Source: a virus
DNA: 31,315 bases
Reading direction: 5' to 3' (one strand)
IMG/VR virus record: IMGVR_UViG_3300027881_000050
Span: 1-31,315 of that record
The notes beneath the pieces were generated by a model. It had not been told where the DNA came from. It ran no database searches and saw nothing but the letters and a program-made list of their open reading frames with translations. Positions 2,295-31,315 of the stretch are shown here, piece after piece; within the stretch, counting starts at the first letter, position 1, and every line of letters begins with the position of its first letter. The translations under genes and the position numbers were made by a program.

Positions 2295-2297
2295 CGC

Positions 2298-3945: not shown

Positions 3946-3955
3946 TTCTCACTCC

Positions 3956-5446: not shown

Positions 5447-5478
5447 ACTCTCTACAATCCTTTAATCCCACAAAATTC

Positions 5479-6156
5479 CTACGTCATCCAAATTATTTGA
5501 TTTCCTGCTGTCGGTTTTGGTACAAATGCTGCCCGTATTAAGTGTCCAGTACGCTCAACACTCATATTACCACCCACAGCCATATCCGAATCATCACACT
5601 GTTTGTACATCAATGCTGCACGTAATGATTTTTGGTTTGTTGTACCTGTTACACCAAGCTCACTTACTTCAGTCATCTCATCCGGTATCCAAGTACCACT
5701 ATTACGGATATGATTCTGTGTTGCAAACATAAACCGTGTTGGATTTATCCCGGTAACAGTCTTAGGCCAGTCAGAAACCCAAGAAAACTCAGACTCACCA
5801 TGATGATACGGAGTAAGACCTAACAACCCACTAACTCGTACTGCCCAAGCTACTACGGCATGAGTACTATCACTCAAGTTAACTCGCAAATTGGCTGTCA
5901 TGACCGTAGGAGCAACCTTACCCCAATATTCTGTCCGAAGATCGTTTGAACTATTATACGCAAAAATCTTAGATAAAGGTTGGTTTACACCAGTAGGGTC
6001 CCATTGAACCGAAGAAACACTTCGTGCAGCCCCATCATGTTTAATCCCCACAAATACTAATAATGATTCTCCTGTAGCAAGAGGAATACTATCGCAACGA
6101 ACAAAAGCAACAACCGCACCTGTATCCGTATATGCTCCCAAATATTGAATCGGCAT
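5479..6156 (-). CDS. Hypothetical tail-tip or fibre-associated protein
   Basis: This 225-residue protein starts MPIQYLGAYTDTG. Its ATG overlaps the stop of the large tail-tip protein gene by one base (TAATG), so the two are very likely co-translated. It is rich in short hydrophobic beta-strand-like stretches (GAVVAFVRC, SLLVFVGIKHDG, HAVVAWAVRVSG) and has no signal peptide or transmembrane helix. The pattern suggests a jelly-roll or lectin-like fold, possibly carbohydrate binding, but I cannot name a family. The neighbours are the hub/fibre genes and the three collar fibres, which makes a virion tail-tip role plausible. It could also be an assembly chaperone for a fibre. Confidence 0.72.
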   Translation of the reverse strand: MPIQYLGAYTDTGAVVAFVRCDSIPLATGESLLVFVGIKHDGAARSVSSVQWDPTGVNQPLSKIFAYNSSNDLRTEYWGKVAPTVMTANLRVNLSDSTHAVVAWAVRVSGLLGLTPYHHGESEFSWVSDWPKTVTGINPTRFMFATQNHIRNSGTWIPDEMTEVSELGVTGTTNQKSLRAALMYKQCDDSDMAVGGNMSVERTGHLIRAAFVPKPTAGNQIIWMT

Positions 6157-8774: not shown

Positions 8775-9913
8775 TATCGAATACTCGCTGAACCCATTCC
8801 CAATCGAGCCATAAGAAGATCAAGAGCCACGTTCTTCTTTCCAAGCTCAACTTGAAGTGTGTTTTTCTCTGCACTATATCGTGTACGATTAATAAAAGCT
8901 ATTGCTGCATCCTCACCACTTGCAGAATCAACGATCTGTGCAACAGTAGGATCATAATCATTTACTCGAAGTACCTGTCCTGCTCGTACCATATATGGAT
9001 AATCTGGCGCTCCAGCTTGTGTATAGATGCGTCCTGAAATAGCTAATCGAGAAGCCTGTGTAGGTTTAGCATAGCTATTTATTGCAAGTTGGGCCATTGT
9101 GTTCGCAATTCCCGGTAATGCAGGGCCAATGTTCAAACTTCCTTCTCGTATACCAAACAATCCTTGACTTACGTCGTCCTCTTCCCAATCAGTAAACGTC
9201 GGTCCAATGTCTGGATCATCGTAAAGAACTTGAATCTTATTAAAAAGTTGTCGTCGGCTACGACTTAACGTTAGCCCAGTTCCCGATCCAAAATCTTTTA
9301 CAAAAACCTGCCAATCAGGTTCAACCGTAGTAATATCTGGTTGAGCAAAAAGATAAGGTTGACGATGATCCCAAATTGCAAAAAAGATTGGAACAGGAAT
9401 CACCCCATCATCACCAAACTTAGTTACCGCTTCAACTGCATCTCGAAGTTTTTGCTCCCCAGTAAAATCCTGAGGAGTAACATCGGTAACTGTGGTTTTA
9501 ATCCGTGAATGGTCCTTCCACCATTGATCCGATAAATCCACGGTATCCTCAATCATCTCGGAAATCGACGTAGGCGTACCAGCAGGATAAATGATGCCGT
9601 GTGTTAAATCTTGGGCATGAGCATAATAACCAACACAAGCAACTTTAACGCCCTTGGCATCAGCATCCGTTGCATCAATTCGTCCTTCGTATAAACGACG
9701 ACCAAGATGATCAAAAATGACTGCGTGGTAACCCACATAGTCCCGATACCAACGAATAGCATTATACCCACCGACTTCTACTTTGAAATTTGCTGTTCCG
9801 TATCCACCATGAAGGAATGTGTCAAACCCCAATCCAGTATGGCGATCCGTCATTTCCTTGAAGTCCGCAGGATTCTCGTTGTAATTTTTCCAGATCGCTA
9901 TTGATAGTTTCAT
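8774..9913 (-). CDS. Tal-like tail hub protein (tail-associated, gp27-like)
   Basis: This 379-residue protein follows the Dit-like gene and precedes the large tip protein, the usual slot of the hub/Tal N-terminal domain in siphoviruses. It begins MKLSIAIWKNYNENP. Its body is a beta-rich hub-like sequence with alternating hydrophobic strands (ANFKVEVGGYNAIRW, YEGRIDATDADAKG). The C-terminal part, with an RAGQVLRVNDY motif and then RTRYSAEKNTLQVELG, resembles the hub domain that closes the tube end. It is short for a Tal protein and has no peptidase or lysozyme domain, so the tip functions appear to be split off into the next gene. The ATG overlaps the previous stop by four bases (ATGA). The assignment rests on synteny plus sequence character. 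Confidence 0.78.
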   Translation of the reverse strand: MKLSIAIWKNYNENPADFKEMTDRHTGLGFDTFLHGGYGTANFKVEVGGYNAIRWYRDYVGYHAVIFDHLGRRLYEGRIDATDADAKGVKVACVGYYAHAQDLTHGIIYPAGTPTSISEMIEDTVDLSDQWWKDHSRIKTTVTDVTPQDFTGEQKLRDAVEAVTKFGDDGVIPVPIFFAIWDHRQPYLFAQPDITTVEPDWQVFVKDFGSGTGLTLSRSRRQLFNKIQVLYDDPDIGPTFTDWEEDDVSQGLFGIREGSLNIGPALPGIANTMAQLAINSYAKPTQASRLAISGRIYTQAGAPDYPYMVRAGQVLRVNDYDPTVAQIVDSASGEDAAIAFINRTRYSAEKNTLQVELGKKNVALDLLMARLGMGSASIR

Positions 9914-12241: not shown

Positions 12242-12259
12242 AATTCTCACAGGAGAATT
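12242..12259. promoter_or_regulatory. Short perfect hairpin at the tape measure / Dit junction
   Basis: AATTCTC and GAGAATT form a perfect 7-bp inverted repeat around a four-base loop, and the repeat overlaps the tape measure stop codon. No T-run follows it in the reading direction, so it is not a typical intrinsic terminator. It could stabilise the mRNA end or modulate translation of the next gene, whose ATG is 13 bases beyond the hairpin. Confidence 0.3.
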
Positions 12260-15200
12260 AGAGTTCTTCTCCGAACGCCATTCCCACACTCATATTTCCT
12301 TCTGCACGTTGAGCTAACACTCGCTCAACTGCTTCAGCAATATCTTCAATATCCTGATCGCTGCGCACAGAATCCTTACCAAACTGAAGAGTAATTGACG
12401 GATTACTCCCATCACCTGTAACAGCATTAACAGATTGAGGAATAGCCCCACCAAAATCAAAAGCAGGTTCAAGATCAAGACCACCAGCCTCACCAAATAA
12501 ACCTCCCGTAGATGCACCAAGAGCCAATTTAAACTCTTCACTCATTGACTCGATACCTTCAACAGCACCTCGGACAATAAACTTGCCGGATTCAAACATG
12601 ACCTTAGAAGGTGATCCTAATCCCCAAATTTTATTCCACCATGCTAGAGCGGTATTATAAATTTCTCGAAGTGCACCAACAACAGCCTCGGTTTTACTTG
12701 TAATACCAGTAACCACACCACTAATCAAATCTGCACCAGCAGTCTTAAAGTCTTCCCAACCTTCCTCAATAACAGCAACCCAATCCTTTATTTTTTCTTC
12801 TACTGTTGTTTTAACATCATCCCATTTTTCAGACAACATTGTTTTAATTTCTTCCGCCTTTGTATCTATTGCTGTTTTAACAAGAAGCCATTTTGCTTCT
12901 ACTGTAGTTTTAATCTCATCTATCTTTGTGCCTGTCGTTGTTTTAGCTGTTTCCCAGGCTGTAGAAATTGCTGTTGTAATCTCTTCCCACTTTGTAGTTA
13001 CAGCGGTTACAATTTCTGCTATCTTCGTACCTATAGCCGTTTTAATTTCTTCCCACTTTTCACTTGTCACTGTTTCAGACGCTTCCCATGCTGTAGAAAT
13101 CGCTGTTGTAATTTCTTCCCATTTTGTAGCTACAAGTGTTACGATTTCTTCTATCTTTGTACCCAAAGCTGTTGTAATTTCATCCCATTTTGCACCTGTT
13201 ACCGTCGTAATTTCATCCCACCACGTAGAAATAATCGTTGCAATCTCTTCCCATTTTGTGGATATGGCTGTTTTAATTTCTTCTACTTTTGTATCTATTG
13301 TTTCTTTTATTCCCTCCCAAGCATCAGAAATCTTTTCTTTAACATCTTCCCAACCTTCTCCGGCTACGGCAGTTGTTTCTTCCCACCACGCAATAATTGA
13401 TTCGCCTGCTCCTTTAAGTCCCTCACCAATTCCCTCAAACCACTCAATAACACCTTCAACTACTTCACCAGCCCAAACTCCAGCCTTACTCAAAAATTCC
13501 ATAAGTTTAAACTTAAGAATAAACCACAAGTCTTTTAACGTTTGCCATGCTTGAGGCCCTTTTGTAATAAGCACAGTAACAAGTAATGCAAGAGCACCCG
13601 CTAATGCTGTTACAGGACCAAGAAGAGTAACAAGTAAAGTCATGATCCCCATTATACCACCACTGGATAATGCTGTTGGAATAAGAGTAATAAATGCTCC
13701 TAAGTTTCCAAGGGCTCCAGATGTTAAGAATCCAGTAAGACCTGCAAAAGAAAATCCAGCTATTGCTCCAAGAATTGGCTTAAGCAAAGCAAATGTTCCT
13801 AAAAAGATCAGAATTTCATCTAGATTATTTGTAAAAAAATCAGCTATTGGACCAAGTGCATCCGCTATATCTTTAATACTATCACCCAATCCTTCAGGAA
13901 GAATATCAATCTTTCCTTCAGTAAGATCACTAATAAACGTTTTTGCGTCCTCAATAAAACCAGAAATGTTTTCCCAAACACCACCAACATCTCCACCAAG
14001 TTCATGCATTCGTTCCATCTTACCAACAATCTCAGCAAGGTCTGGATCAATATTTTCAAGACCGTAAAACTGTGCAAGCTCAATTTCTTTAGGAGTCAAA
14101 TTCTCTGCTAAGAATCCAGCAATATTTAATGCTTCACCCTGGAAACCAGCAAGAAATGCATCCCAAACAACAGACATCATTCCAATGCGCTCTTCCAGGG
14201 TAACAATGTCTTCATACGTATTTTCTAATTCTTCCTGCCACGCACCTGTATCAAGCGCAGCCAAAGAAGGAAATTCGAAATCACCTAGCGCATTCAATGC
14301 ACCAGACATCTTCTCCAAGGAATCAATAAGTTTCGCTTGAAGATCATCTTGATGCTGCATTGCCTCGATCATAGCTTTCTGCGTTTCTAATTGTTCTTGA
14401 GCAATATCCTTTTGTTTTTCTAGCTCTCGTTCTTCCTGCGCTAAGATACGAAGCTCCTCATCTCGATCACGCATAGCCTCTCGAATTGCATCAGCTTTTT
14501 CTTCCGCTGTCATGTTCGACTGAGCAATAAGCTGAATCTCCTGACGATATAAGTCAAGCACTGCTTCACGCTGCTTTTCAATTTCAGCTAATTCTTTCTG
14601 AATACGATTATAATCCAACCAAAGTCGGATAAGTTCCTGAACTTCATCAGCAGCCTCACCCAGATTAGCTGTGATGTCATTCAAAACGTCCTGAGCAACT
14701 TGACCTGTATCATTAAAAATATTAATGAGTTTTGCTAGGTCTTGTCGAGCTTGCATTGCGAACTTAAATTGAGCTTTATCCCCGATAAGTTCAGTTTTTG
14801 CTAAAGTAGCAAAAACCTTCTCAATGATATTACCAACCTGTTGTAAAATACCAAAATCAGCTTTCAAGAATCCACCCAAGAAAGCATCAAAAACATTTCG
14901 TCCCCACTTATCAATATGGGAAAGTGGTCCTACATCCGGAGGAGAACTACCAGCCAAAAACCTACCAATAAAATTACCAATAGCTGAGAGTACTCGGGCA
15001 AGAACCGAAACCGCTGCGGACAACATACCCGCACCATAGGTTATAATAAGATTTTCTCCCCAAGCTTTAGCACGTTCTCCTAAATTGATAAAGAAATCGG
15101 AAAGAATTTTACCAAGTCCTGTAAATCTCAAAACCAGAAAAGCAATACCCGCAACTAATCCGGTAACCATCAAATTTCCGGCTGTAAGTAATCCTCCAAT

Positions 15201-16712
15201 CGAACCCGTGATACCTACTATCGCTCCACCCAATTTTATAAAACCCATAGATAATGAACCGATAACTTGAAGTGCTCGTCCAAAGGACATCATAACCATT
15301 GCAATACCAAATCCAATTTGTGAAAGGAATAGAATCAATGGTCCAGCTACACCTAATAGTAGAGCAACAACAAGAATCGCTTTCTTAACTTCAGGTGAAA
15401 GTCGTTTAAATTCTTCTGCCAACCAACGAATCGCAGGAATAGTCATTTGAACAATTTCGTTTATAACAGGAAGCAGGGTATCACCTAATACAAGAGCAAT
15501 CTCACTTACGTTATTACGAAGAACTTTCAATTGATTTTCAGTAGAAAGAAGTGCTGCCTGATACTCGTACCAGAGAGACATCCCACTTGCTACTTCATCA
15601 TTGGCAACTGCTAGAGCCCTATCAAAAGTATCAATACCACCAGCCATTGCAGCCCAAGCCTTACCACCTCGAATACCACCAGCTTCAATAGTTGCAAATA
15701 ACGCTTGCGCTCGTTCATCACCCATAGAAGCAGCATGAACAAGATCAGTAAGAACCTGTACAGCATCCTCATTAATCGCATTCATAACTGCCTGTGCATC
15801 TCCGTAACCTTCGGTTGCTGACATTAATTGAGCAACCTCATCAGCATTCTGAACAACCTTGATTGTCATATTACGAAGAGCAGTACCAGCTTCTTCAGCA
15901 CCGAAACCAACATCAATTAAAGCAGTAACAAATGCGGCACCCGCTTCAGGTGGAAATTCAATCAAACTACCAACCTGAGCAAAATTCTCCAATGCTGCTA
16001 AAATTTCAGGAGCCGCTGCTGCAAAATCATTTTCAAGTCGGTTAATAACTGAAGACAGAAGTGCAATTTGCGCAGCCCCTTCTTCAGTATTTAGATCAAT
16101 ACCAAAAGCATTAGCAATCTTACCCATCGAATTAGCAACTTTATCAGCACTAATATCGGTTGCCATAGTAAGCATATTAAAAGTATCGATCAAGGATAAA
16201 ATTGCAGGAACATCTCGCACACCAAGCTGACCAATCTGCTCAGCCATCTTTGCGAGGTCTACTTGTGATGTGGCAGTCGTAACTCCCATTTCACGAATAC
16301 CCAAAGCAAGCTCTTTCAAACGAGCCCCGGTTAATTGTGTCGTCTTAGAAACACGAACTAACGCAGCGTCAAAACCAATTGCTACGTCCGCAGCCTTTTT
16401 AATTATTAGAAAAATTGCAGGAGTTAGGAACAATGTCATGGACTTACCAATAGACATCATACCTTGTGCAGCAAGTCGCAATGAGTTGCTGAAATTCATG
16501 AAGGTGTTGACAGCAGTTCTACCACCAGCAGTAATTGCAGAAAGGGTTTTAACAAATCCCCCACCCTGTACGGTAGTTTTACTCATTCTTTGAGAAAAGG
16601 TATTAAGCCCCTTACCCAAAACCTGAATACCACGACTCGTTTTATTGATCGTGGCTGAAACTTGATCTTTACCTGTAAACTTCAGGGTAATGGTATGGGT
16701 TGATCCCGCCAT
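12258..16712 (-). CDS. Phage tail tape measure protein
   Basis: At 1484 residues this is the longest gene and follows the G/GT chaperones, the canonical place for the tape measure, which sets tail length and fills the tube. Residues about 105-310 form a TP901-type tape measure core (GVTTATSQVDLAKMAEQIG; GFGAEEAGTALRNM). Long hydrophobic stretches lie near 90-110, 440-475, 510-530 and 985-1065. Residues about 690-800 form a charged coiled coil. Residues about 1134-1310 are hendecad repeats of KWEEITTAIST type. The tail end carries a GSPSKVM...GKFIVRG motif typical of tape measures, and a related GSSPPDVGPL segment sits mid-protein. At the usual ~0.15 nm per residue the tail would be near 220 nm. 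The ATG directly abuts the TAA of the frameshift product (TAAATG), with GAGG eight bases upstream, which implies tight coupling. Confidence 0.95.
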   Translation of the reverse strand: MAGSTHTITLKFTGKDQVSATINKTSRGIQVLGKGLNTFSQRMSKTTVQGGGFVKTLSAITAGGRTAVNTFMNFSNSLRLAAQGMMSIGKSMTLFLTPAIFLIIKKAADVAIGFDAALVRVSKTTQLTGARLKELALGIREMGVTTATSQVDLAKMAEQIGQLGVRDVPAILSLIDTFNMLTMATDISADKVANSMGKIANAFGIDLNTEEGAAQIALLSSVINRLENDFAAAAPEILAALENFAQVGSLIEFPPEAGAAFVTALIDVGFGAEEAGTALRNMTIKVVQNADEVAQLMSATEGYGDAQAVMNAINEDAVQVLTDLVHAASMGDERAQALFATIEAGGIRGGKAWAAMAGGIDTFDRALAVANDEVASGMSLWYEYQAALLSTENQLKVLRNNVSEIALVLGDTLLPVINEIVQMTIPAIRWLAEEFKRLSPEVKKAILVVALLLGVAGPLILFLSQIGFGIAMVMMSFGRALQVIGSLSMGFIKLGGAIVGITGSIGGLLTAGNLMVTGLVAGIAFLVLRFTGLGKILSDFFINLGERAKAWGENLIITYGAGMLSAAVSVLARVLSAIGNFIGRFLAGSSPPDVGPLSHIDKWGRNVFDAFLGGFLKADFGILQQVGNIIEKVFATLAKTELIGDKAQFKFAMQARQDLAKLINIFNDTGQVAQDVLNDITANLGEAADEVQELIRLWLDYNRIQKELAEIEKQREAVLDLYRQEIQLIAQSNMTAEEKADAIREAMRDRDEELRILAQEERELEKQKDIAQEQLETQKAMIEAMQHQDDLQAKLIDSLEKMSGALNALGDFEFPSLAALDTGAWQEELENTYEDIVTLEERIGMMSVVWDAFLAGFQGEALNIAGFLAENLTPKEIELAQFYGLENIDPDLAEIVGKMERMHELGGDVGGVWENISGFIEDAKTFISDLTEGKIDILPEGLGDSIKDIADALGPIADFFTNNLDEILIFLGTFALLKPILGAIAGFSFAGLTGFLTSGALGNLGAFITLIPTALSSGGIMGIMTLLVTLLGPVTALAGALALLVTVLITKGPQAWQTLKDLWFILKFKLMEFLSKAGVWAGEVVEGVIEWFEGIGEGLKGAGESIIAWWEETTAVAGEGWEDVKEKISDAWEGIKETIDTKVEEIKTAISTKWEEIATIISTWWDEITTVTGAKWDEITTALGTKIEEIVTLVATKWEEITTAISTAWEASETVTSEKWEEIKTAIGTKIAEIVTAVTTKWEEITTAISTAWETAKTTTGTKIDEIKTTVEAKWLLVKTAIDTKAEEIKTMLSEKWDDVKTTVEEKIKDWVAVIEEGWEDFKTAGADLISGVVTGITSKTEAVVGALREIYNTALAWWNKIWGLGSPSKVMFESGKFIVRGAVEGIESMSEEFKLALGASTGGLFGEAGGLDLEPAFDFGGAIPQSVNAVTGDGSNPSITLQFGKDSVRSDQDIEDIAEAVERVLAQRAEGNMSVGMAFGEEL
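12781..13310 (-). repeat. 33-bp (11-residue) tandem repeats in the tape measure gene
   Basis: About fifteen consecutive 11-residue units run through residues about 1134-1310, for example KWEEITTAIST, KIEEIVTLVAT and KWDEITTALGT. Most carry an aromatic or aliphatic residue at position 2 and Ile/Val at position 5. Eleven-residue periodicity favours right-handed coiled-coil or helical bundles. The DNA shows the same period on the minus strand (for example repeated TTCTTCCCA-type blocks on the plus strand), with copies diverged but in frame throughout. Confidence 0.88.
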
Positions 16713-20513: not shown

Positions 20514-21887
20514 TTAGGCCAGTTTAACGTGACGGACTACACTAACCAAGTTTGGATGAACGAGACGTGCTGCGATGTAACCCTTCAACATATAGTCAAA
20601 GGTATCCTTAATACGAGCTAGTTCAACAAACGAGAATAGACGGTCAGTCTGTCGTCCCATATCATCGATCTTACCCAAGAATGCTCCACCACGACGAGGG
20701 TTGTAATTGGCAAGAAGAATATTCTGCTCACCAGCAGACAACGGCTTGATTGCCTTAAGAGTTGTTCCTGCGCCAGTATCGATAGAACCATCATCCAAGT
20801 ATGCTTCAACTGAACCATTGACTGTACCTGCGGAGTCATAGGTCAATGCCGGGATGATATCAAGAATCTTCAAGTTTGCATTTCCGGTTGCAAGACCTCT
20901 CCAAATAATATAGAGAAGTGCAGTGGCATCAGCGGTCCACGCAAGGTTGACTTCGTTGTTGGTTGTTTCCGTGGTATCACTATCCTCTGTACCAGCAACC
21001 TGTTCGCCATAAGCGGTCACAGATGAAATAACGTAGAAGTACTCGTCATCAATCAATGAGCCTGTGGCACCCTTAGTTGCGGTAACAGCAGGGGAAGTTG
21101 TGGTTTCTGCCGGAGAAATGAAGTCAGATTCCATGATCGGAACGTTTGCATATGCTGCCATGATGATTTTTCCATCGGCCAATACTGCTTCGGTCAATGG
21201 AATTTGAACCTTAGTCTGGAGGCCATCGACAACCTGCTTCATACGGGTGCCCATGAGCCAAACCTTCGGGTCTCCCCGAACGCCTCGGAATCCTGTTGCC
21301 TTAGCAATTGCCTGATCCAAGTCATCCAGTGCGACTATGTTTCCACCACCATCAATGATGTTGGCAGGAGAATAGGCGAACATACGAGGAATAATACCTG
21401 AGTACTGATAAGCATCACCAGTGAAGGTAATGTCATCTGCACAGCCCCACATGAGACCATATTCAATGATGTTGGACATACCTTCGAGCGAACCCTCAAG
21501 TTCAGTGGAGAGCGCATCAATGAAGCCCTCATCCATAGACTGAGCAAAACCAGAAACCGATCCCCAAATACGCTGAATCTTCATCTGGACAGTTTTGCGC
21601 TGGTAGACCGAGTTCTTTGCATTCGCCGGGGTGACCTCACCTTCGAACCAAGCCTGCGGGTGGCTAGAACGAACATTGTACTCGTGGGTCTTGCTTCCTG
21701 CCTCAAGAACACTGAACAATACAGCAAGAGGCTGAAGCTTCAAAAGTTCCTCGTGGAGAATCGGGTCAAGATCGTAAGGCAAAAGTGCAGCACCATCACC
21801 AGTGGTTAGAAGTGCCTTTCGGAGTTCTTCTCCACCGCCGATCTGCTCCATGATATTCTTATAAATACGATCCTTTACGGTTTCCAT
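20514..21887 (-). CDS. HK97-fold major capsid protein with Ig-like insertion
   Basis: This 457-residue protein lies directly after the protease gene. It starts METVKDRIYKNIMEQIGGG at the ATG at 21887, with AAGGA six bases upstream. Residues 1-255 show the HK97 major capsid pattern (LLPYDLDPILHEEL; FEGEVTPANAKNSVYQ; VWLMGTRMKQVVDGL; MAAYANVPIMESDF). Residues about 257-379 are an inserted beta-sandwich module (DEYFYVISSVTAYGE; NNEVNLAWTADATALLYIIWR) of FnIII/Ig type. The capsid fold resumes at NILLANYNPRRGG and ends LVSVVRHVKLA. It has no long N-terminal scaffold (delta) domain; that role probably falls to the protease's acidic tail. The inserted domain would project from the capsid surface. 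A strong terminator hairpin follows. Confidence 0.92.
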   Translation of the reverse strand: METVKDRIYKNIMEQIGGGEELRKALLTTGDGAALLPYDLDPILHEELLKLQPLAVLFSVLEAGSKTHEYNVRSSHPQAWFEGEVTPANAKNSVYQRKTVQMKIQRIWGSVSGFAQSMDEGFIDALSTELEGSLEGMSNIIEYGLMWGCADDITFTGDAYQYSGIIPRMFAYSPANIIDGGGNIVALDDLDQAIAKATGFRGVRGDPKVWLMGTRMKQVVDGLQTKVQIPLTEAVLADGKIIMAAYANVPIMESDFISPAETTTSPAVTATKGATGSLIDDEYFYVISSVTAYGEQVAGTEDSDTTETTNNEVNLAWTADATALLYIIWRGLATGNANLKILDIIPALTYDSAGTVNGSVEAYLDDGSIDTGAGTTLKAIKPLSAGEQNILLANYNPRRGGAFLGKIDDMGRQTDRLFSFVELARIKDTFDYMLKGYIAARLVHPNLVSVVRHVKLA

Positions 21888-21907: not shown

Positions 21908-23269
21908 TTAACTGCGCTCACGAATCGTAACTCGTGGCTGATCACTTAGATAATTGCGAATTGCTGACTTTAGCATATCAGGCTTTTTACCACCTGCGCT
22001 CTCCGAAGACTCTTGAATTTCTTCAGCAGTCTCATGTGGAAGAGCAGTTATTGCTGTCTGTCCCTTTCGCTTTGCAGGCTCCATAAGATTACTTACCATC
22101 TCTGTCAACTCTGCAACTTGGAACTGAAGGTCTAAAACCTCAGCTACTAATGTGGATTCCTCCTCATCAGCTTCCTCTACATCTTCTACTTTCTCCGCCT
22201 CTGGCTGCTCAGTTCCCTGAACCTCTGCCTCGGCCTCTGAGAGAGCATCAATTAGAGCCCTTGCCAATGGAAGATACTCTTCCACGGTAGCTGGACTAAT
22301 GCCCAGTTCTTCCTCTTCAATCGATTCTTCCTCGATTGTGTCAACCTCGGACGCAACTTCCTCCTCAGGTTCGAGGTCCGTCTCTTCGGTAGCTTCTTGA
22401 GAATCAAACAAAACGCTATCTGGATCGTTCTCTTCATCTTCCTCAGTAAGTCGAACATCAAGGTCTTCAAGAACTTCTTCAACACCCTCATCTTCTTCTA
22501 CTGCTTCAAGAGCTTCCTCTTCTTCATCAACAGAAGATTCAAGTACTTCTTCAGTCTCTTCCTCAGCCAATTCCTCAGCTTCGTCAACTGATGCCTCGAT
22601 CTCTTCTTCGATAGTTTCCTCCGCCACGATCTCCTCTTCCGGCTGGAGGTCCTTTTGTAACTTTGTCATATCGATTCCCTCCTCCGTTGCAGGGGTCGTA
22701 ACTGCGCCCAAGGCTTTAGAAACCATGGCGAAACCATGTTCAACAACCATTTGACGCAATTCTCGATTCATAGGAACACTTTTTTCTTCATCCAAAAAGA
22801 GACGTGCATCATAGTTAGCAGGATGATCTACCAAACTAATCTCAACAAGATCATAGTTAACAATCGTCCAACCACCTGTCTCTTCATCAATCTCAATGTC
22901 AGCCCATGAACTAATAATAATACCAACACTTAAAGCTTTCAAAAGCCCATTCTTAACCTGGAACACGGCTTCGGGATCAATAACATGAATCTCCACCTCA
23001 TTCCACTTAAGACCATCATCTTTACCAATGTTAAGAACTTTTGCAACTGGCTTAGGCATATGCATATAACGAATATTGCCCCATTGTCGGTACTTCGGAA
23101 TAGCGTTTTCTGTTGCTTCCCTTGTGATAATGTCACCAACTTCATCAACTGCATCACTAGTAAAAAATCCACGAACAAAGATACTTCCATCTTCCTGAAC
23201 TACAAAACCCTTACTAAGTGGAACACCAATATGCTTGTGAATAAACTGTCCTCGTGATCGTACAGCCAT
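21908..23269 (-). CDS. Prohead protease (HK97/S78-like) fused to acidic scaffold-like domain
   Basis: This 453-residue protein starts at the ATG at 23269, where AAGGAG precedes by seven bases. An upstream TTG at 23284 is possible but has no such site. The first 160 residues look like an HK97 prohead protease, with His70 (IRYMHMPKP), Ser114 (LLKALSVGI) and the EISLVDHPAN segment as likely active-site elements. The enzyme would cleave scaffold and capsid precursors during maturation. From about residue 195 to 375 the protein is extremely acidic (EEEIVAEETIEEEIEA style) and low complexity. A helical region follows (VLDLQFQVAELTEMVSNLM), then a basic tail ending RVTIRERS. The acidic stretch plus coiled coil fits a scaffold. 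The capsid gene lacks its own scaffold domain, which supports a protease-scaffold fusion. Confidence 0.87.
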   Translation of the reverse strand: MAVRSRGQFIHKHIGVPLSKGFVVQEDGSIFVRGFFTSDAVDEVGDIITREATENAIPKYRQWGNIRYMHMPKPVAKVLNIGKDDGLKWNEVEIHVIDPEAVFQVKNGLLKALSVGIIISSWADIEIDEETGGWTIVNYDLVEISLVDHPANYDARLFLDEEKSVPMNRELRQMVVEHGFAMVSKALGAVTTPATEEGIDMTKLQKDLQPEEEIVAEETIEEEIEASVDEAEELAEEETEEVLESSVDEEEEALEAVEEDEGVEEVLEDLDVRLTEEDEENDPDSVLFDSQEATEETDLEPEEEVASEVDTIEEESIEEEELGISPATVEEYLPLARALIDALSEAEAEVQGTEQPEAEKVEDVEEADEEESTLVAEVLDLQFQVAELTEMVSNLMEPAKRKGQTAITALPHETAEEIQESSESAGGKKPDMLKSAIRNYLSDQPRVTIRERS

Positions 23270-23287
23270 GTCCGTCTCCTTCAAAAG

Positions 23288-23616: not shown

Positions 23617-23901
23617 TTATTCTTTTCTAAGAGTCAACTCACTAACTTTAGAAACCATTCTTCGTGCAGCTTGAGTAGAAATTGCGTCTACCAATTGATA
23701 CATCGCTCTTGTAATTGGATCAGCAGTATACCAAACCTTCGGAGTATTACAATCAGGACAACGAATTACAAGATTGGGTCCTCTTGTTTGCATATACTTT
23801 CCCCCAATATCTTCTGCCGGATGAAATTCACCACCAAGAACACTCCCCAAACATCGTCTGCACTCCTCATTAATGCAAAACCACTCGGTTGTTTTAGCCA
23901 T
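23617..23901 (-). CDS. Zinc-ribbon-like small protein after the portal
   Basis: This 94-residue protein has two CxxC pairs, Cys14/Cys17 and Cys48/Cys51, consistent with a zinc ribbon, plus Cys9. The start is the ATG at 23901, whose first bases overlap the portal stop (ATGGCTAA), with GAGGAAG upstream; a start 12 codons earlier lies deeper in the portal gene and lacks a site. The C-terminal half is helical (VDAISTQAARRMVSKV). Small Cys-pair proteins in phage head modules may bind DNA or act as regulators. The exact role is unknown. Confidence 0.75.
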   Translation of the reverse strand: MAKTTEWFCINEECRRCLGSVLGGEFHPAEDIGGKYMQTRGPNLVIRCPDCNTPKVWYTADPITRAMYQLVDAISTQAARRMVSKVSELTLRKE

Positions 23902-25666
23902 TTTGAACTTCCTCCACAATTCCAAAAACATTCTCAAAAATTTCTTTTACGGCTTCTACATCATGGGCATGTTCAAGCCGTTTTTGTACTAAACTTGCAA
24001 TTTCTACGGGAATATGTTCTGTTCTATATGAACGAAGTTTCATCCCTCGTCTCATTCGACCTACAGCAAATTTACGCCATGCCCGAATCTCTGCAATTAA
24101 CCTTCCGGTAACCTCGGTTCGAAAAGTATTCGCAAGTCCCTGTGCTTCATCCCAAGATTCAGCATTAATCTCTGGACCTTGCCAATCACCTAATTGAGGA
24201 TTAGCTTCAGAACGAGTTGTTGTAAGAAACGGACCAACTCCAGCTTCAAGTTCTTGAAGTTGCCTAGCAGCATCATCATGATCATCTCCACGAGGCGGGT
24301 CTTGATCATCATTAGTTGGTTCTCCCGTTTCAGATGGAGAATCCTCTTCGTCTTCTCGACCTTCAGGTGGACTACCTCGTGGTTCTTGACCTACATTAGA
24401 AGGCATTATATAAATATCACCGCCTTCCCTATCTTCCCGCCCCAATTCTTCACGAGCTTCATTAGGACTCAAAACTCCAAATTGAATATATCGCATATGA
24501 ACTGTTGCTCGTTCCACTGCGGTCATAAAATCTGGATTGTTAAATTGAAAAACCCAACCTTCAGAAAGAAATTCACGAACATGAACCTGTTCATAAAGAG
24601 CGGTTTCAACTAATTTAAAAAGCGGCTCCATAGTTGTTTCATGAAACTGTCTACGAGCTTCACGAATATTAGCACTTGATAAAGTCTCTCCAATTCCAAG
24701 AACCGGACCACTTGTTCCGGCTACAGCCAACGTTTCTTCTCGAACATCATCTCGGGCTTCAATATACGGAAGAGAATCCGGTAAATCATCTACCCGCTCA
24801 ATTTTTAATTCGCCTTGAACAGCAACCGGATTACGCCCTCGATTCTGCGGTCCAGCATATTTGCTATTTAAAAGTGAAACAAATGTGTCAAAGGCTTCAT
24901 CAGAAATGTCGTGCGGAAGCATATAAATAAGTTCCGGACGATTGCTATTTTTCATATACTCACGAGCAGCCGTTTGAAGATACAAATCAAGCGGAAGCGT
25001 GTATTCTGTTAGAGCCTCGATATCTGATCCACCAAGAGGTGATCCTTCCCAATCAGGATTCATAATAAATACAATATCGCCTGGATCATCAATTTCAGTT
25101 CGAATTCTTGGGTCTTTGACAGGATACTGAATAAAGGCTGGACTCTTAAAATAACCGAATTCATCCACGTTAGGAACAACAAGTCCCGGTAGATGGTCAA
25201 AACCAATTGTTTGCCCTGCATTATTGCGAATTAAAAGATACGCAGCCTGACCAAAAAAACGTAGATACTCTGCACCAATGGTAAGTTTATACGCCAAACT
25301 TTGATAATCTTTAATGTTATCCCATTCACGCTCTTGATTAGCATAAAATCGAAGTAGCCTCGTGCGTTGTTCGTCTGTAGCCGCTTCTCCCCAGTCATCA
25401 TGCTTCGACAATTTCCACCATGCACCAATCGTAGCACGACCAATAGCACTCATAGCCGCACGAGTATATCCATGCACTTTAATCGTATCCATCATTGTCC
25501 AAAAAAGAAGGAACTTTTTTAGGCTAGGATATGCTTCATTTTTAAATAGTGCTTGTATATCTGCCGGAAAAACTGGCCTGTATTCTGATTCCGCTGCTCT
25601 CTGAATAACAGCGATCCTACGGTCACCCGTAGAAACATTCCTTGACAAGCCAAGTACTCTACTCAT
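23894..25666 (-). CDS. Portal protein (HK97/PF04860-like)
   Basis: This 590-residue protein is in the portal position ahead of protease and capsid genes. The ATG at 25666 has GAGG seven bases upstream. Residues about 60-440 match the HK97-type portal pattern (IGAEYLRFFGQAAYLLIRN; FNPDF-type segments; VLGIGETLSSANIREARRQF; VLSPNEAREELGRED). The portal dodecamer forms the DNA entry channel at one capsid vertex and binds the terminase and connector. A Pro/Asp/Glu/Gly-rich disordered linker (about residues 445-490, PPEGREDEEDSPSETG) joins a C-terminal extension of about 100 residues (WRKFAVGRMRRGMKL) that is more basic and helical, longer than in many portals. No terminase is present; it may lie beyond the right edge. 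Confidence 0.9.
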   Translation of the reverse strand: MSRVLGLSRNVSTGDRRIAVIQRAAESEYRPVFPADIQALFKNEAYPSLKKFLLFWTMMDTIKVHGYTRAAMSAIGRATIGAWWKLSKHDDWGEAATDEQRTRLLRFYANQEREWDNIKDYQSLAYKLTIGAEYLRFFGQAAYLLIRNNAGQTIGFDHLPGLVVPNVDEFGYFKSPAFIQYPVKDPRIRTEIDDPGDIVFIMNPDWEGSPLGGSDIEALTEYTLPLDLYLQTAAREYMKNSNRPELIYMLPHDISDEAFDTFVSLLNSKYAGPQNRGRNPVAVQGELKIERVDDLPDSLPYIEARDDVREETLAVAGTSGPVLGIGETLSSANIREARRQFHETTMEPLFKLVETALYEQVHVREFLSEGWVFQFNNPDFMTAVERATVHMRYIQFGVLSPNEAREELGREDREGGDIYIMPSNVGQEPRGSPPEGREDEEDSPSETGEPTNDDQDPPRGDDHDDAARQLQELEAGVGPFLTTTRSEANPQLGDWQGPEINAESWDEAQGLANTFRTEVTGRLIAEIRAWRKFAVGRMRRGMKLRSYRTEHIPVEIASLVQKRLEHAHDVEAVKEIFENVFGIVEEVQNG

Positions 25667-25700: not shown

Positions 25701-25991
25701 TTAGCCCTTAAATCGAGCGTAAATTTCAATTGAAGTCAAGTTGCCCACTTTCTCAGCAGTTCCAAAGGTAACAGACGCATGAAAAAACCAAATACCTTCT
25801 TGATCAAGATCATCTTCCACAGTTTGGTACTCTAAATAATATTCGTCCTCAATTGAAGCAATCCATGATCCCTCAGTTCCGTCAGGTTTCTGATAAAGAA
25901 TTTTTGGGTTTGTTGCTCCAAGAAGACTATTTATACAATCAATCCGAATTAAGGGATCGTCGTCAACATAAAATTTCTGTTCATCTGTCAT
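25701..25991 (-). CDS. BppU-like small beta protein
   Basis: This 96-residue protein starts MTDEQKFYVDDDPLIRIDC. The ATG at 25991 follows the preceding stop by one base, with GGAGAG upstream. The sequence resembles the BppU-type N-terminal module of phage upper baseplate proteins (ILYQKPDGTEGSWIAS, LEYQTVEDDLDQEGIWFFHASV): an Ig-like beta-sandwich that holds fibres or attaches to the virion. It is short, consisting of that module alone. It is probably a fibre adaptor or decoration element for the adjacent repeat protein. Assignment is by pattern resemblance. Confidence 0.72.
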   Translation of the reverse strand: MTDEQKFYVDDDPLIRIDCINSLLGATNPKILYQKPDGTEGSWIASIEDEYYLEYQTVEDDLDQEGIWFFHASVTFGTAEKVGNLTSIEIYARFKG

Positions 25992-25992
25992 A

Positions 25993-28974
25993 TTAATATC
26001 TCTCCGTTTCAGTCTGAGAAACCAACTCGATTACCAATGAAATTCCAGAGTCTAACATAAGTATTGCTGGAAGTTTAGAAACCATTGGAAGTACCGCTGA
26101 AAGACGAGAACTTCTTGCTATCGTCATAGAAATCTGAGATTCTTCTTCTACTGTAATTCCCAACAATGATTTCAAAAGAATAATTGCTCTTCTTAAAATT
26201 CTAGAAATTGCTAAAAGTGTATCGGTGATTCCTACAGAATCAGCAAGAACAACAATAATTCCTCTAATAGCTACAATCGCATCAGTAATTCCAACGGCAT
26301 TACTTATTGAAACTACCCCGGCATAAATTTTACTTAAGGCATCTGTTATCCCCATCGAATCAGTTAGACTTCTCCTAAACTGTCCAATTCTACTAAAGAC
26401 ATCAGTGACTCCAACAAAACCAGCGATTGAAATTACTCCAGAGTAACTCCGACTTAATACATCAGTTATTCCCACCGTATCAATTAATGTCGTAATTAAT
26501 ACAAGTGTCGAAGAAAACACATCGGTAATTCCGACAGTATCGACAAGTACCACAATTCTTCCTACCGAGATAGAAATCGTATCGGTGATTCCTTCTGCAT
26601 CGAAGATTGGTCTTATAAATGTTCCAACCTTGGAAAGAACATCTGTGATTCCCACTGGGTCAGACAAACCTATCACAAAATCAATCGATAGAGAAACAAC
26701 GTCTGTAATTCCCACATTATCCAGTAAAACTACGATCCTACCAATTGACACAAAAACTATATCAGTTGCTCCCACATTATCCAGTAAAACTACGATCTTA
26801 CCAATTGACGTAAAAACCACATCAGTTATTCCCACATTATCCAGTAAAACTACGATCCTACCAACGGACACGGAAACCACATCGGTTATTCCTACAGTAT
26901 CGACAAGTGCCACAATTCTCCCTACTGCTGTAGAAAGAATATCAGTGCTTCCAACAGTATCAGCAACACCTCTAATATAGGTTCCAATCTTTGTTAAAGT
27001 ATCAGTGATTCCAACCGTGTCTACTAAAGTTGCTAAGATTGCTACAAATACACCAACAGTATCTGTTATACCAATTGTGTCCGCTATGTTTATAACATAC
27101 TCTATTATAATTGAGGTGGTATCTGTGATCCCTTCTGCATCAGAAAGTGCTCTTATAAATGTACCAACTTTAAATATAGCATCTGTAATTCCTAGAGTAT
27201 CTACTAACACTACAATAACATCTACTGATGTTGAAACAACGTCCGTAATTCCAAGAACATCGCCCACAACACTTCTTACAAGATATCTTATAGTTGTTAC
27301 TATGTCAGTGATTGAAACTGCGTCAGCAAGAGCCACAATTCTTCCTACCGATTTAGAAACAATGTCTGTAATCCCAACGAGATCAGTGAGAATTATAAGT
27401 TTCTCTACCGATTTAGAAATAATGTCTGTAATCCCAACGGGATCAACAATTGCCAACACATACTGAACCGAGATAGAAAGTACGTCCGTGACTCCTATTG
27501 TATCTGCTAATGATACAATCCTCCCGATTAATATTGAAGCTGTATCAGTAATTCCTTCGACATCAGTAATACTTCTGATATAAGTTCCAACTTTTGATAC
27601 TGTGTCTGTAATACTGATTGAATCAACTAAAACAACTACTTTTTCAATCGCTGTTATAAATATGTCCGTAATCCCTACAGCATCAACAACGAACACTATT
27701 CTTCCCACTGATTTAGAAATAGTGTCGGTAATTCCTACAGGATCAACTAAACCTTTTACATAATCAAGTGCAATGGTTAATACATCGGTAGTTCCAACCG
27801 AATCAGTAAGTCCTATTACCTTTCCAACGATAATTGCAATTGTATCAGTAATATCAACCGTTTCTAAAAGACTTACAACAACACCTTTTGCAGTTGATAT
27901 AACATCCGTAATTCCTACAGTATCAACCAATGTAACAAATATAGTTAGAAGAGTGTTTATATTGTCTGTGATTCCGACTGCATCAGAAATGCTTCTTATA
28001 AAGGCTCCAATAATACTTATAACATCAGTAATACCTTCGGCATCGGCAATACTTCTTACATATGTACCGATTAAAGACATGGTATCAGTGATTCCTACTG
28101 CATCTGTTAAAGAAACGATTCTTCCTACTATCGTAGATAAAGCATCAGTGATCCCAACGGCATCTGTAAGTACAGCAAATCTAGCATCTCCCGAAAGAGC
28201 ACCACCAATACTCCAAATCAAACCCTCAAGCTCAGTTAAACGAGTTTCGATAACAGAAATTACGTCAGTGATTCCTACAGTGTCTGCTAAACTTACTATA
28301 CGACCAACAATTAATGATATTACATCAGTGATTTCTTCTGTATCCGCAAGAAAAATTGTTATTTGTCGTGCAGTCGATAAAGCATCTGTGATTCCTACAG
28401 TGTCTGCTAAAGCTACAACTACTTCAACAAGAGTAGAAATAGTATCAGTTATACCAACCGTGTCTACAAGAGCTACGATAACTCCTACAAATGTGTCTAT
28501 AGTATCAGTGCTTCCAACAGTATCAGCAACACCTCTAATATAGGTTCCAATCTTTATTAAAGTATCAGTGATTCCAACCGTGTCCGCTAAACCTTTAATA
28601 AACGTTCCTATTTTAGAAATTGCGTCTGTTATTCCTACTGAGTCAGCGACGGCTTTAATAAGTCCTCTAGCATTGGTTACAGTATCAGTGATGCCAAGTG
28701 CATCTACTAAGGCTGCATAAATGGCTTCGCCGGATACAGGCTCATCGAAGCCTATCTCTCTTGCAAGCCACCCTGTATCTCCCGTGGTTTCACTATAGCA
28801 ATCAAAGCCAGTCGTAGTTATGCTGGTTGCGCCCGTTCCCTTACATGGAGAAGCCGTACTATAGCTGGTAACAAAAACCATAGGCGTTGAATCGAAGGTA
28901 TCAGCAAATGTTACGGCTTCCTGAGCCTTTGAAACCTGTTGGTCGTGGATACCACTGTCATACTGCTTTGCCAT
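25993..28974 (-). CDS. Repeat-rich putative fibre protein with 41 copies of a 20-residue GITD repeat
   Basis: This 993-residue protein begins with an H-type-lectin-like module (about residues 20-75, including FADTFDSTPMV and ITTTGFDCY), homologous to the second module of the gene two upstream. From about residue 88 to 930 it is built of 41 units of 20 residues whose core is D-x-V-G-I-T-D, with alternating hydrophobic residues between cores (VGRIVSLADTVGITD). One non-repeat block (LEGLIWSIGGALSGD) sits near residue 255. A short basic/hydrophobic end (ILRRAIILLKSLLGIT; ISMTIARSSRL) follows. The start has GGAG nine bases upstream. No signal peptide or sorting motif is visible. Neighbours are other fibre-type genes and the portal. 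The most likely role is a long adsorption fibre or surface decoration whose lectin head binds sugar. The repeat fold is unknown to me. Confidence 0.8.
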   Translation of the reverse strand: MAKQYDSGIHDQQVSKAQEAVTFADTFDSTPMVFVTSYSTASPCKGTGATSITTTGFDCYSETTGDTGWLAREIGFDEPVSGEAIYAALVDALGITDTVTNARGLIKAVADSVGITDAISKIGTFIKGLADTVGITDTLIKIGTYIRGVADTVGSTDTIDTFVGVIVALVDTVGITDTISTLVEVVVALADTVGITDALSTARQITIFLADTEEITDVISLIVGRIVSLADTVGITDVISVIETRLTELEGLIWSIGGALSGDARFAVLTDAVGITDALSTIVGRIVSLTDAVGITDTMSLIGTYVRSIADAEGITDVISIIGAFIRSISDAVGITDNINTLLTIFVTLVDTVGITDVISTAKGVVVSLLETVDITDTIAIIVGKVIGLTDSVGTTDVLTIALDYVKGLVDPVGITDTISKSVGRIVFVVDAVGITDIFITAIEKVVVLVDSISITDTVSKVGTYIRSITDVEGITDTASILIGRIVSLADTIGVTDVLSISVQYVLAIVDPVGITDIISKSVEKLIILTDLVGITDIVSKSVGRIVALADAVSITDIVTTIRYLVRSVVGDVLGITDVVSTSVDVIVVLVDTLGITDAIFKVGTFIRALSDAEGITDTTSIIIEYVINIADTIGITDTVGVFVAILATLVDTVGITDTLTKIGTYIRGVADTVGSTDILSTAVGRIVALVDTVGITDVVSVSVGRIVVLLDNVGITDVVFTSIGKIVVLLDNVGATDIVFVSIGRIVVLLDNVGITDVVSLSIDFVIGLSDPVGITDVLSKVGTFIRPIFDAEGITDTISISVGRIVVLVDTVGITDVFSSTLVLITTLIDTVGITDVLSRSYSGVISIAGFVGVTDVFSRIGQFRRSLTDSMGITDALSKIYAGVVSISNAVGITDAIVAIRGIIVVLADSVGITDTLLAISRILRRAIILLKSLLGITVEEESQISMTIARSSRLSAVLPMVSKLPAILMLDSGISLVIELVSQTETERY
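26200..28710 (-). repeat. 60-bp tandem coding repeat array (41 units)
   Basis: A near-perfect 60-bp period runs for about 2.5 kb, always in frame. Each unit carries an ATCAGT/GTCTGT-type core on the plus strand, encoding GITD on the minus strand. The only phase change is one extra codon near 27290-27303, and one 60-bp unit at about 28183-28250 has no core. Units vary in the rest of the sequence, so this is an old array with recent local copies (26701-26880). It is coding, not intergenic, and has no invariant repeat with unique spacers, so it is not a CRISPR. Confidence 0.93.
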
Positions 28975-28978
28975 CTAC

Positions 28979-29629
28979 TTATGCTCCACACCTATCGCAA
29001 TTGCCTGTTCGCATTCCTTGGGGATTGAAATTGTAGCTGCACGTATCAATCAAACGGATGTCTTGCTCAAAATATGGAAAAGCACCACAACGCTTGGGCT
29101 TACCTCCTGATACGTGCCAACTGCAACCATCCTGGCTTACGTTCATGCAAGGAAATCCCTCGTCAGGATGGTTCATTTCCCAACCCCACTCCGGGTCATC
29201 TTCCTCATTCAAATCTGGGTCGCCACTGGTAGCAAGTTGGAAGAGGTCTATTGCCTCACCATGCACAAGATAGATATTAGCAATGCGGTCTAAATCTAAT
29301 GAAAAGATAAGATGGCAACATTTATTTAGCATATCTGGATTATCTGCCCTAAAGTTCACAAGGTCAACATCAGGGTGGATAACGGAAAGAAGATCAATTT
29401 TGGCTTGTCGATCAGCCTCTACTTCTGTTAAAATCCCTTCTGCTAGTAGTTCTAATTTCCGTTGTTTATAGATAGCAAAACATTCTTCATTGTCTAAATA
29501 TGGACGATTCTCAATCGGCTTTTCCGCTAAATCCGAAAATTTATGGCTACTTTCCCAAGCACCCTTCGGCCAATTTCTTGCTTCATCTGGATGTACATCT
29601 TTCTTTTTCCTATTATAATTGACAGTCAT
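28979..29629 (-). CDS. YkgJ-like cysteine-cluster protein (PF03692-like)
   Basis: This 216-residue protein starts MTVNYNRKKKDVHPDEA. I prefer the ATG at 29629, which overlaps the previous stop by one base (TAATG) and has GGGAG eight bases upstream, over an earlier start that would run 48 bases into the neighbour. Nine cysteines lie at 50, 104, 105, 161, 169, 181, 197, 211 and 214. The pattern KCCHLIFSLDLDRIA then PCM, GCSWH, RCGAFPYF and TCSYNF resembles the CxxCC...C...C...C family, which includes YkgJ and the flagellin methylase FliB and is thought to bind iron-sulfur or zinc. The C-terminal CxxC could complete a site. The role is unknown; it may modify a fibre or host surface protein. Confidence 0.75.
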   Translation of the reverse strand: MTVNYNRKKKDVHPDEARNWPKGAWESSHKFSDLAEKPIENRPYLDNEECFAIYKQRKLELLAEGILTEVEADRQAKIDLLSVIHPDVDLVNFRADNPDMLNKCCHLIFSLDLDRIANIYLVHGEAIDLFQLATSGDPDLNEEDDPEWGWEMNHPDEGFPCMNVSQDGCSWHVSGGKPKRCGAFPYFEQDIRLIDTCSYNFNPQGMRTGNCDRCGA

Positions 29630-30129
29630 TAACTTGTCTCCCAAAAACCATTCGTATACATCGCTACCCAGTTGCAATTGTCCCCCGCCACTTTTATTTC
29701 CGTCGCCACATCACAGCCCGTGGTCGTGATGTTAGCCGCTGATGTTTTTCCACCCTTCCAGTCCGTCGCCCCTCCGGAATATCCAGTAATCACTATCGGA
29801 GCAGAGGCAAACGTGTCGTTAAATGAAACTGCCTCAAGTATCTTTGTGACAGCTACTTGCAAAGTACCGCTGTCCATTTCTGGATGTGTACCTGCCGCAC
29901 CCGCATCGTATCCAGGCTCTTTTGCCAAATATCTCAATCCGGTAACTTCCCCGCCTACGTCTGCTTGGGTGGTGGTTACACTACCCTCCTCGACCATTGA
30001 CTTCTTTTTATCTGTGTCCGCCGCAACAATAAGGTCAACGGGGGCACTATCAAAGGTGTCGTTGAAATCTTCTGTATTGGATTGGGCCGCCGTTATAGTC
30101 CAAATATCTGCGTCTGTCATTAAAGCCAC
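29629..30129 (-). CDS. Tandem H-type-lectin-like module protein
   Basis: This 166-residue protein contains two related modules. The first, around residues 18-75, has DFNDTFDSAPVDL. The second, around 98-158, has VSFNDTFASAPIV, ITTTGCDVATE and NWVAMY. The pattern (aromatic-x-x-Thr-Phe-x-x-x-Pro, then an ITTTG segment, then Trp) resembles the H-type lectin domain, which binds N-acetylgalactosamine-type sugars in animals and occurs in phage fibres. A GTG at 30129 is supported by GGAGG six bases upstream; the ATG three codons later would be at 15 bases from it. The GTG overlaps the previous stop by one base (TAGTG). The third module of this type starts the 993-residue repeat protein. The protein probably caps or decorates fibres. 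Lectin function is inference. Confidence 0.75.
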   Translation of the reverse strand: MALMTDADIWTITAAQSNTEDFNDTFDSAPVDLIVAADTDKKKSMVEEGSVTTTQADVGGEVTGLRYLAKEPGYDAGAAGTHPEMDSGTLQVAVTKILEAVSFNDTFASAPIVITGYSGGATDWKGGKTSAANITTTGCDVATEIKVAGDNCNWVAMYTNGFWETS

Positions 30130-31315
30130 TATCCTCCTCCTTTAGCAATACCACGCATAACTCCACGATTGGCTCCTCTACGACTAGCAAAACCTTCTCC
30201 ACCACCTTCCTCATATTCTAGATGAAGTTCTGGGGCCTTTCCAGTATCATCATCCCAACTGTAATAATTCATAAACACAGATGACGATCCATTGTCAAGG
30301 TGTAGCATCACCAAGTCTTGATTTGCATTCCATCCACCACGATCAAAAATATCAGCGAGAACGGTCTTTAATTCTGGTGTGTCATAAGGGGTACTACCCC
30401 CTGCCCATGCTGATGGCGTCCAATCAACCCCTGTGGCTGTGGTATTTCTATCCTTAACCTTCTCTCCAGCCGAATCTGCAAATTCTGGAGCATCATCAAT
30501 AGCCTCGCCGTAGAGTGTAGAAAGTACCGAGGTAGGGCTCACGTTAGAGTCATTAGATACCAACGTAAGATATGCTGTTTGTACGATTGGCGTATTTGGA
30601 ACATTGACTGTCTGAAAACGCATACCTGATTCAAAAATATCCGTTGACCAATGACCAACCATAAGAGTACCGTCCAGGTCTATACCACCAGCATCCTCCA
30701 GAGCATCGTCTAGACTTGCCCCTACTACCTCATCGACATCAGTATCCACCATGACTGGAAAAGTTGCATTGGTGATGAAGTCCATTGGGACTAAGTGTGT
30801 AATGTATAAAACGTTACCAACCTTCTTGAATCTGAGCGTACCTAATTGCTGAGTTCCACCAGAATCCCATGACTTCGGTAGACCAAACCACCAGATTGCG
30901 TTGTCACCGCTATCTCGAAATTCAACGTATCCTTGTGTATCACGATCTTGCTGATGTCCAAGCATTCCCCATTCTTCCCCGTTGATATAAGGCGTCACAC
31001 CTGACGAATGGGCAAAAATCATATTCAACGCAAGAACAGGATTACCACCGTCGATGATATACTGCTCCATTGTTGGAAGGTCAGTTAATACACCGATTGT
31101 CAATAACTTTCTTAGCCTTTCCGATTGTGCTTGCCAAGAGAAATCCAACCCTGGTCCATAACCATCTTCCCAGAATAGTTTATTGCCGCCTTCAATAGAA
31201 GCGACTACAGACTGAGGTATCTCAATCTGCTGAATCTGTTCTAGATCATTGGTATATTGGAGAGCGTGGGGCTGGAATCTTACCCATTCGTCGTTAACGG
31301 GGTTTCGATATTCAA
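30129..31315 (-). CDS. DNRLRE-like structural protein (partial, 5' end outside window)
   Basis: The frame is open to the right window edge, so the start lies outside; 395 codons are seen. A TTG at 31148 inside the frame is not its real start because sensible coding sequence continues beyond it (NPVNDEWVRFQPHALQY). The N-terminal half contains LWFGLPKSWDSG-style sequence and a beta-rich module (LRFKKVGNVLYITHLVPMDF) also seen in large phage structural proteins. The second half (FESGMRFQTVNVPNTPIVQT to APELHLEYE) resembles DNRLRE/jelly-roll modules that decorate surfaces. The C-terminus is glycine/arginine rich (RRGANRGVMRG). It is part of a virion decoration or fibre; the family assignment is by resemblance and not certain. 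Confidence 0.72.
   Translation of the reverse strand, partial: EYRNPVNDEWVRFQPHALQYTNDLEQIQQIEIPQSVVASIEGGNKLFWEDGYGPGLDFSWQAQSERLRKLLTIGVLTDLPTMEQYIIDGGNPVLALNMIFAHSSGVTPYINGEEWGMLGHQQDRDTQGYVEFRDSGDNAIWWFGLPKSWDSGGTQQLGTLRFKKVGNVLYITHLVPMDFITNATFPVMVDTDVDEVVGASLDDALEDAGGIDLDGTLMVGHWSTDIFESGMRFQTVNVPNTPIVQTAYLTLVSNDSNVSPTSVLSTLYGEAIDDAPEFADSAGEKVKDRNTTATGVDWTPSAWAGGSTPYDTPELKTVLADIFDRGGWNANQDLVMLHLDNGSSSVFMNYYSWDDDTGKAPELHLEYEEGGGEGFASRRGANRGVMRGIAKGGG

Follow-up and report, generated by a model that had tools for sequence, protein, structure and literature searches.

A GITD repeat protein with exchangeable heads, a candidate adhesion fibre of tailed phages

Results

The GITD gene and its structural neighbours

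The sequence examined here, IMGVR_UViG_3300027881_000050, derives from an uncultivated virus and is referred to as the window, meaning the whole stretch of 31,315 bases. The minus strand carries its main genes, and this block comprises the structural genes of a tailed phage. The phage late operon proposed in the first-pass annotation was thereby borne out, as a portal, a protease, a major head protein and a tape measure could all be assigned. The features of relevance are:

1002-12228, at the opposite end of the block from the GITD gene: large tail-end proteins with collar-like C-termini
12258..16712, minus strand: tape measure protein, separate from the GITD protein (PhageMin_Tail, 1.3e-17)
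20514..21887, minus strand: major head protein (phrog_752, 4.5e-10)
21908..23284, minus strand: head maturation protease (phrog_9427, 3.7e-11)
23894..25666, minus strand: portal protein (PF04860, 4.8e-26; phrog_12, 1.2e-34)
25701..25991, minus strand: small protein of 96 aa, Ig-like in appearance, one base past the stop codon of the GITD gene
25993..28974, minus strand: GITD repeat protein gene, 993 aa in a single open frame
25996..26205, minus strand: C-terminal segment following the array (aa 924-993), with a basic amphipathic stretch at its start
about 26206..28728, minus strand: array of 42 slots of a 20-residue unit, 41 with an ITD core and one degenerate
27247..27309, minus strand: sole unit of 21 residues (aa 556-576; step from aa 555 to 576)
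28189..28248, minus strand: degenerate unit slot without ITD core (aa 243-262)
28741..28974, minus strand: N-terminal head, H-type-lectin-like (aa 1-78; H_lectin 18.9 bits, cut-off 24)
28979..29677, minus strand: Cys-containing protein of 232 aa, directly upstream of the GITD gene
29629..30129, minus strand: protein of 166 aa with two domains related to the GITD head (H_lectin 23.0 bits)
30129..31148, minus strand: beta-rich-looking protein of 339 aa, upstream of the GITD gene

The portal and major head proteins display a distant likeness to their counterparts in cultured phages, the nearest annotated match of the major head protein being to the Leptospira phages LE3 and LE4 at ~25% identity. 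For the 232-aa protein, which is conserved at the equivalent place in the related locus L004, a family profile search yielded no match, and the 339-aa protein had no family match in profile and PHROG searches. In other loci, the small proteins encoded downstream of the GITD gene gave Ig-type matches that were all below threshold. Several further features of the block were observed. The protease gene encodes a long, Glu-rich acidic tail and contains a 27-bp tandem repeat at 22473-22525, while the tape measure gene has tandem repeats of its own (33/66/132 bp at 12951-13293), which are read as an amphipathic TTxWEEI-type repeat. Three paralogous proteins of 430, 415 and 496 aa with GGxDTHTHEY-type collar-like C-termini are encoded at 1002-5446 and are probably alternative tail-end adhesins.

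A 20-residue repeat conserved at the protein level

The consensus of the GITD unit is VGRIVsLaDtVGITDtIStI, and the array is rich in V, I and T. ITD cores were located at aa 95, 115 and onward to aa 916, and all steps between them measure 20 residues, save the one of 21. The first-pass annotation had described some 41 D-x-V-G-I-T-D units in a 993-residue product, spread over 2.5 kb; our count and the mapped span agree with this, and the strict 60-bp period that it had reported holds to within one codon, the 21-residue unit being the exception. Residue identity at a lag of 20 amounted to 0.42, as compared with 0.106 in 500 shuffles (s.d. 0.010, maximum 0.133), and at lags of 19 and 21 it was at or below background.

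Within the unit, D9, G12, T14 and D15 are nearly fixed. T14 is nevertheless specified by all four ACN codons (ACT 19, ACA 12, ACC 6, ACG 4), all four GGN codons are in use for G12, and the mean pS between units (0.68) exceeds the mean pN (0.41). The variety of codons at fixed residues, together with the excess of pS over pN, indicates that the repeat is maintained at the protein level. At the DNA level the units have diverged to a mean identity of about 50-54%, depending on the lag, and younger copies were recognized in units 32-34 and in the pairs 3-4 and 29-30. This wide divergence with few younger copies indicates that the array is old and has undergone some later duplication. The C-terminal segment (aa 924-993) is possibly an anchor, judging from its sequence, and the GITD proteins of relatives have comparable short C-terminal tails.

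The N-terminal head resembles H-type lectins

Both the GITD head and the two domains of the 166-aa neighbour align with the H-type lectin profile (PF09458), for which Pfam applies a curated cut-off of 24 bits. This cut-off was missed by both window proteins, with 18.9 bits for the head and 23.0 bits for the neighbour, whereas the homologue of the neighbour in L004 exceeded it with 26.9 bits. The lectin-like head claimed earlier thus stands as a profile likeness below the cut-off, and since the neighbour's homologue passes, we refer to the head as H-type-lectin-like and not as a proven member of the family. The head is 86% identical in L004 and L007, and a search of viral contigs with the window head returned one close relative. 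An H-lectin-like domain is also present at the C-terminus of the siphophage DUF859 tail protein with a Gp53-like_C tip in L008.

Searches for known relatives of the repeat

Profile searches of the array gave no Pfam, NCBIfam or PDB match, so that no named family or solved structure covers the repeat, in agreement with the earlier statement that no named phage fibre fold is known to have it. The sole PHROG match of the window protein was to phrog_38265 (E 0.003), over 15 residues. PHROG 12240 matches the arrays of relatives in L018 (8e-16), L034 (3e-22), L035 (1e-27) and L037, and PHROG 22415 those in L014, L018, L020 and L031; neither was matched by the window protein at E 0.1, and both lack an assigned function, fold or description. 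The GITD shaft repeat is therefore undescribed as far as these libraries go. No match to tape-measure families was obtained for the GITD protein, the window tape measure being a different gene.

No GITD relative was found in annotated phages. A tblastn match in Aminay was rejected as it runs antisense to an annotated Aminay gene, and so was one on a Staphylococcus plasmid, where the matching ORF has no name, faces accessory Sec genes and an LPXTG fragment on the other strand, and is probably the shadow of a serine-rich adhesin. On this plasmid, which is from Staphylococcus chromogenes (L006, about 3001-5508), the annotated plus-strand 'hypothetical protein' next to the accessory Sec genes is likely a misannotated antisense ORF over that adhesin. 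Pfam matches of relatives' arrays to TAF, AAA_lid_5 and Homeodomain were dismissed as repeat-driven chance, because no stretch passes alone. In a collection of genomes from 84,980 species, exact peptide patterns retrieved no GITD relative, a type of search that diverged prophage or host repeats could escape. The query of a second scan of this collection was a composite of family-like segments and not one natural protein.

Conflicting indications for the fold of the repeat

The first-pass annotation had envisaged a solenoid, a beta-helix or a trimeric fibre. In the average unit, positions 13, 17, 20, 4, 7 and 11 are hydrophobic; they follow a 4-3-4-3-4 pattern that is interrupted at Gly12. For the 18 residues running from position 14 round to position 11, the helical moment was larger than in nearly all permutations (p <= 0.0003), although the p values are optimistic because the segment was picked after the pattern had been seen. 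In none of the segments tried did a strand-type moment rise above permutations, which does not favour a triple beta-spiral of the adenovirus type. The best PDB profile match was to 5cwl, a designed helical repeat with G-x-T-D-type turns between its helices (E 0.011), and 6e9r, likewise a designed helical repeat, was matched at E 0.12; these matches are suggestive, but not significant.

The spacing thus fits an amphipathic helix that would be broken at Gly-Ile-Thr-Asp. Against a helix speak the richness of the array in V, I and T and two AlphaFold runs, which predicted two strands per unit, albeit with little confidence (pLDDT about 48-62 in the repeats). A Foldseek search with the first model (pLDDT 52) gave no match, the best E being 0.73, as is to be expected at such a pLDDT; for the head, this outcome carries no information, since two head rows were misplaced in the alignment underlying this model. 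The low confidence for the monomer would suit an obligate oligomer, yet in itself it is no evidence for one.

The repeat occurs in viruses with unrelated capsid genes

Repeat-alignment searches identified ~17 further distinct viral contigs with the GITD repeat, among which the genes of L011 and L013, and those of L031 and L032, are near-identical. In the relatives examined for spacing the step is mostly 20 residues, and the arrays range from a few to about 54 units. Most arrays of the set L010, L012, L014, L015, L016 and L020 contain one longer unit of 22-24 residues, whereas that of L012 has two; such units often carry a D-x-I-x-A-[VI]-K-G-A-like insert. The arrays are preceded by diverse heads. 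According to Pfam, those of L028, L036 and L037 are laminin-G-like, L037 has an LVIVD head as well, and L034 has a Gly-rich head that also matches a tail-fibre-assembly PHROG; further heads without a Pfam match appear propeller- or sandwich-like by eye. Two unusual C-termini were observed. The array at L019:3-938 is of the GITD type and continues into a 10-residue AEDRTLRV repeat, and the protein at L036:2648-7933 terminates in a Trp-rich VWTGAGW...KQWDGTQWKLVR motif, which presumably recalls actinophage minor tail proteins.

The window major head protein is shared with three GITD contigs (59-84% identity) and was not found in seven others tested, although these records may be fragmentary. Contractile tail sheaths are encoded by L018 and L028. 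The unshared major head protein and the contractile sheaths imply that the repeat crosses virus lineages. Families encoded near GITD genes include portal, major head protein, protease, head closure, Neck1, head-tail adaptor, tail terminator and terminase. As the GITD gene lies outside the head genes in L020 and L031, its siting among them is no more than a trend; moreover, the position of the gene in the genome does not prove a position on the particle. One conserved protein family is co-encoded in 13 of the 18 GITD loci, with members matching phrog_5417; the window yielded no such member.

Independent exchange of heads and shafts

The closest relative, L014, is syntenic with the window, its major head protein, portal and small protein at the equivalent place downstream of the GITD gene being 83%, 65% and 77% identical to those of the window. 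Its GITD head, however, displayed no similarity to the window head at E 0.01, and the two arrays are not colinear, with 20 units in L014 versus 42 in the window. The converse was observed for L004, which keeps the window block of the lectin-like pair, the Cys-containing protein and the head. Here, at L004:8885-9763, the window-type head is followed by a long poly-serine stretch instead of a GITD array. The combination of a different head on a GITD shaft in L014 with the window-type head on poly-serine in L004 points to exchange in both directions, and as read from these sequences, comparison of the loci showed that heads and shafts move between viruses independently of each other. Other observations on L004 were an out-of-frame ORF of 794 aa after the poly-serine stretch and, upstream, glycosyltransferase-like and further genes that look sugar-related.

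Discussion

We consider it most probable, at roughly 60%, that the product of the GITD gene is a virion adhesion fibre of extended and modular build. This interpretation builds on the conservation of the repeat at the protein level, the presence of different heads on the same shaft and the structural-gene neighbours, and also on the protein family co-encoded in most loci and the tail-fibre-assembly match of the L034 head; in the window and in many relatives, the gene lies within the structural block. The lectin-like N-terminal head would bind a ligand on the host surface, probably a glycan, and the array, of which the change in length was directly observed, would serve as a spacer with its length set by the copy number. 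The short C-terminal segment, perhaps together with the downstream small protein, would fasten the fibre to the virion, with the head or neck as possible sites. Given the independent exchange of heads and shafts, binding specificity and reach could change while the rest of the particle is left untouched. Such exchange is as expected of an adhesion device, and it strengthens the earlier proposal of an adsorption device; its presence in the virion, its site there (head, neck or tail) and its binding of glycans are properties that we infer for the protein. Since the gene often resides among head and neck genes and not in the tail-tip block, such a device is not necessarily a tail fibre.

Nonetheless, the product could be an ordinary tail fibre, i.e. 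a receptor-binding fibre of the tail tip or baseplate whose gene lies upstream of the portal gene by mere coincidence. We regard this as rather unlikely. A member of the co-encoded family, that of L018, does match a tail-fibre PHROG, the H-lectin-like domain ends a siphophage tail protein in L008, and the GITD genes of L020 and L031 are close to genes that appear fibre-like. However, the window encodes a full set of tail-end proteins at the opposite end of the block (1002-12228), many GITD genes sit within head, connector or packaging genes, and the variable head is N-terminal, which is the reverse of most tail fibres. A protein that is released or displayed on the cell, for instance a lectin that modifies the surface of the host or of neighbouring cells, would not belong to the virion at all; lectin-like and poly-serine versions exist, and glycosyltransferase and epimerase PHROGs occur near some relatives. 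This is improbable in view of the N-terminus (MAKQYDSGIHD), which has no evident signal peptide, and of the late structural context with its tight gene spacing.

It is very improbable that the GITD protein is a tape-measure-like or other internal structural protein, in which the number of repeats would set a length inside the particle. Its length, its richness in repeats, the helix-like hydrophobic spacing and the variation in copy number would suit such a ruler, but a separate tape measure is present, and an internal component would not be expected to have exchangeable heads of the lectin-like or laminin-G-like type. Lastly, repeats of this kind do yield antisense shadow ORFs over Ser/Thr-rich genes, of which the Staphylococcus plasmid and Aminay matches are probably examples. 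For the window this reading was rejected: the GITD gene is a single frame of 993 aa with a conserved head, while the ORFs on the plus strand are broken into 131, 153 and 256 aa; the neighbouring genes are also on the minus strand and tightly spaced; and homologues keep the GITD frame, with pS above pN. For the preferred virion fibre, a further and more tentative proposal is that the GITD unit represents a new fibre-shaft architecture, which unrelated tailed-phage lineages, including contractile ones, would have in common as an exchangeable spacer that carries glycan-binding tips on the head or neck. Such a shaft might be a multi-chain supercoil of short helices that are broken at each Gly-Ile-Thr-Asp.

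Known systems provide parallels. The gp17 protein of a Cutibacterium (Propionibacterium) acnes phage, which has a weak H-type lectin similarity and a gene near the tail genes, has been proposed to bind carbohydrates (PMC3094311); it shares the lectin likeness with the window head, whereas that paper reports no GITD shaft. The head fibres of RcGTA (Rcc01080 on Rcc01079 spikes) are flexible and bind the host capsule for first attachment (PMC7296036). As described there, the fibre is a 325-aa protein for which no GITD repeat is mentioned; the likeness is functional, and no sequence relationship is shown. Head and decoration fibres mediate attachment in other phages, a role that has been discussed for phi29 (PMC7602432). 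The stem of phi29 gp8.5 is a three-stranded helix-turn-helix (PMC6542822) and thus helical, whereas a helical state of the GITD repeat is a candidate; no phi29 chain was among the PDB profile matches up to E 1. The exchange of carbohydrate-binding modules has been documented for lactococcal neck passage structures and for other receptor-binding proteins (PMC10684548), which swap a C-terminal domain, unlike the GITD proteins with their N-terminal heads. The comparisons with RcGTA, phi29 and the neck passage structures concern how such devices may work, and carry no sequence relationship.

Modular phage adhesins are well known, and a further one as such was to be expected; what is new is the GITD shaft repeat, its breadth, and the independent exchange of heads and shafts. 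The repeat is common to viruses with unrelated capsid genes, and yet it belongs to no named family and has no solved fold. If it does form a virion fibre, these phages would possess a second adhesion system, perhaps on the side of the head or neck, that evolves by swapping tips and by changing the length of its shaft, and searches for such adhesins in uncultivated phages could start from the GITD sequence.
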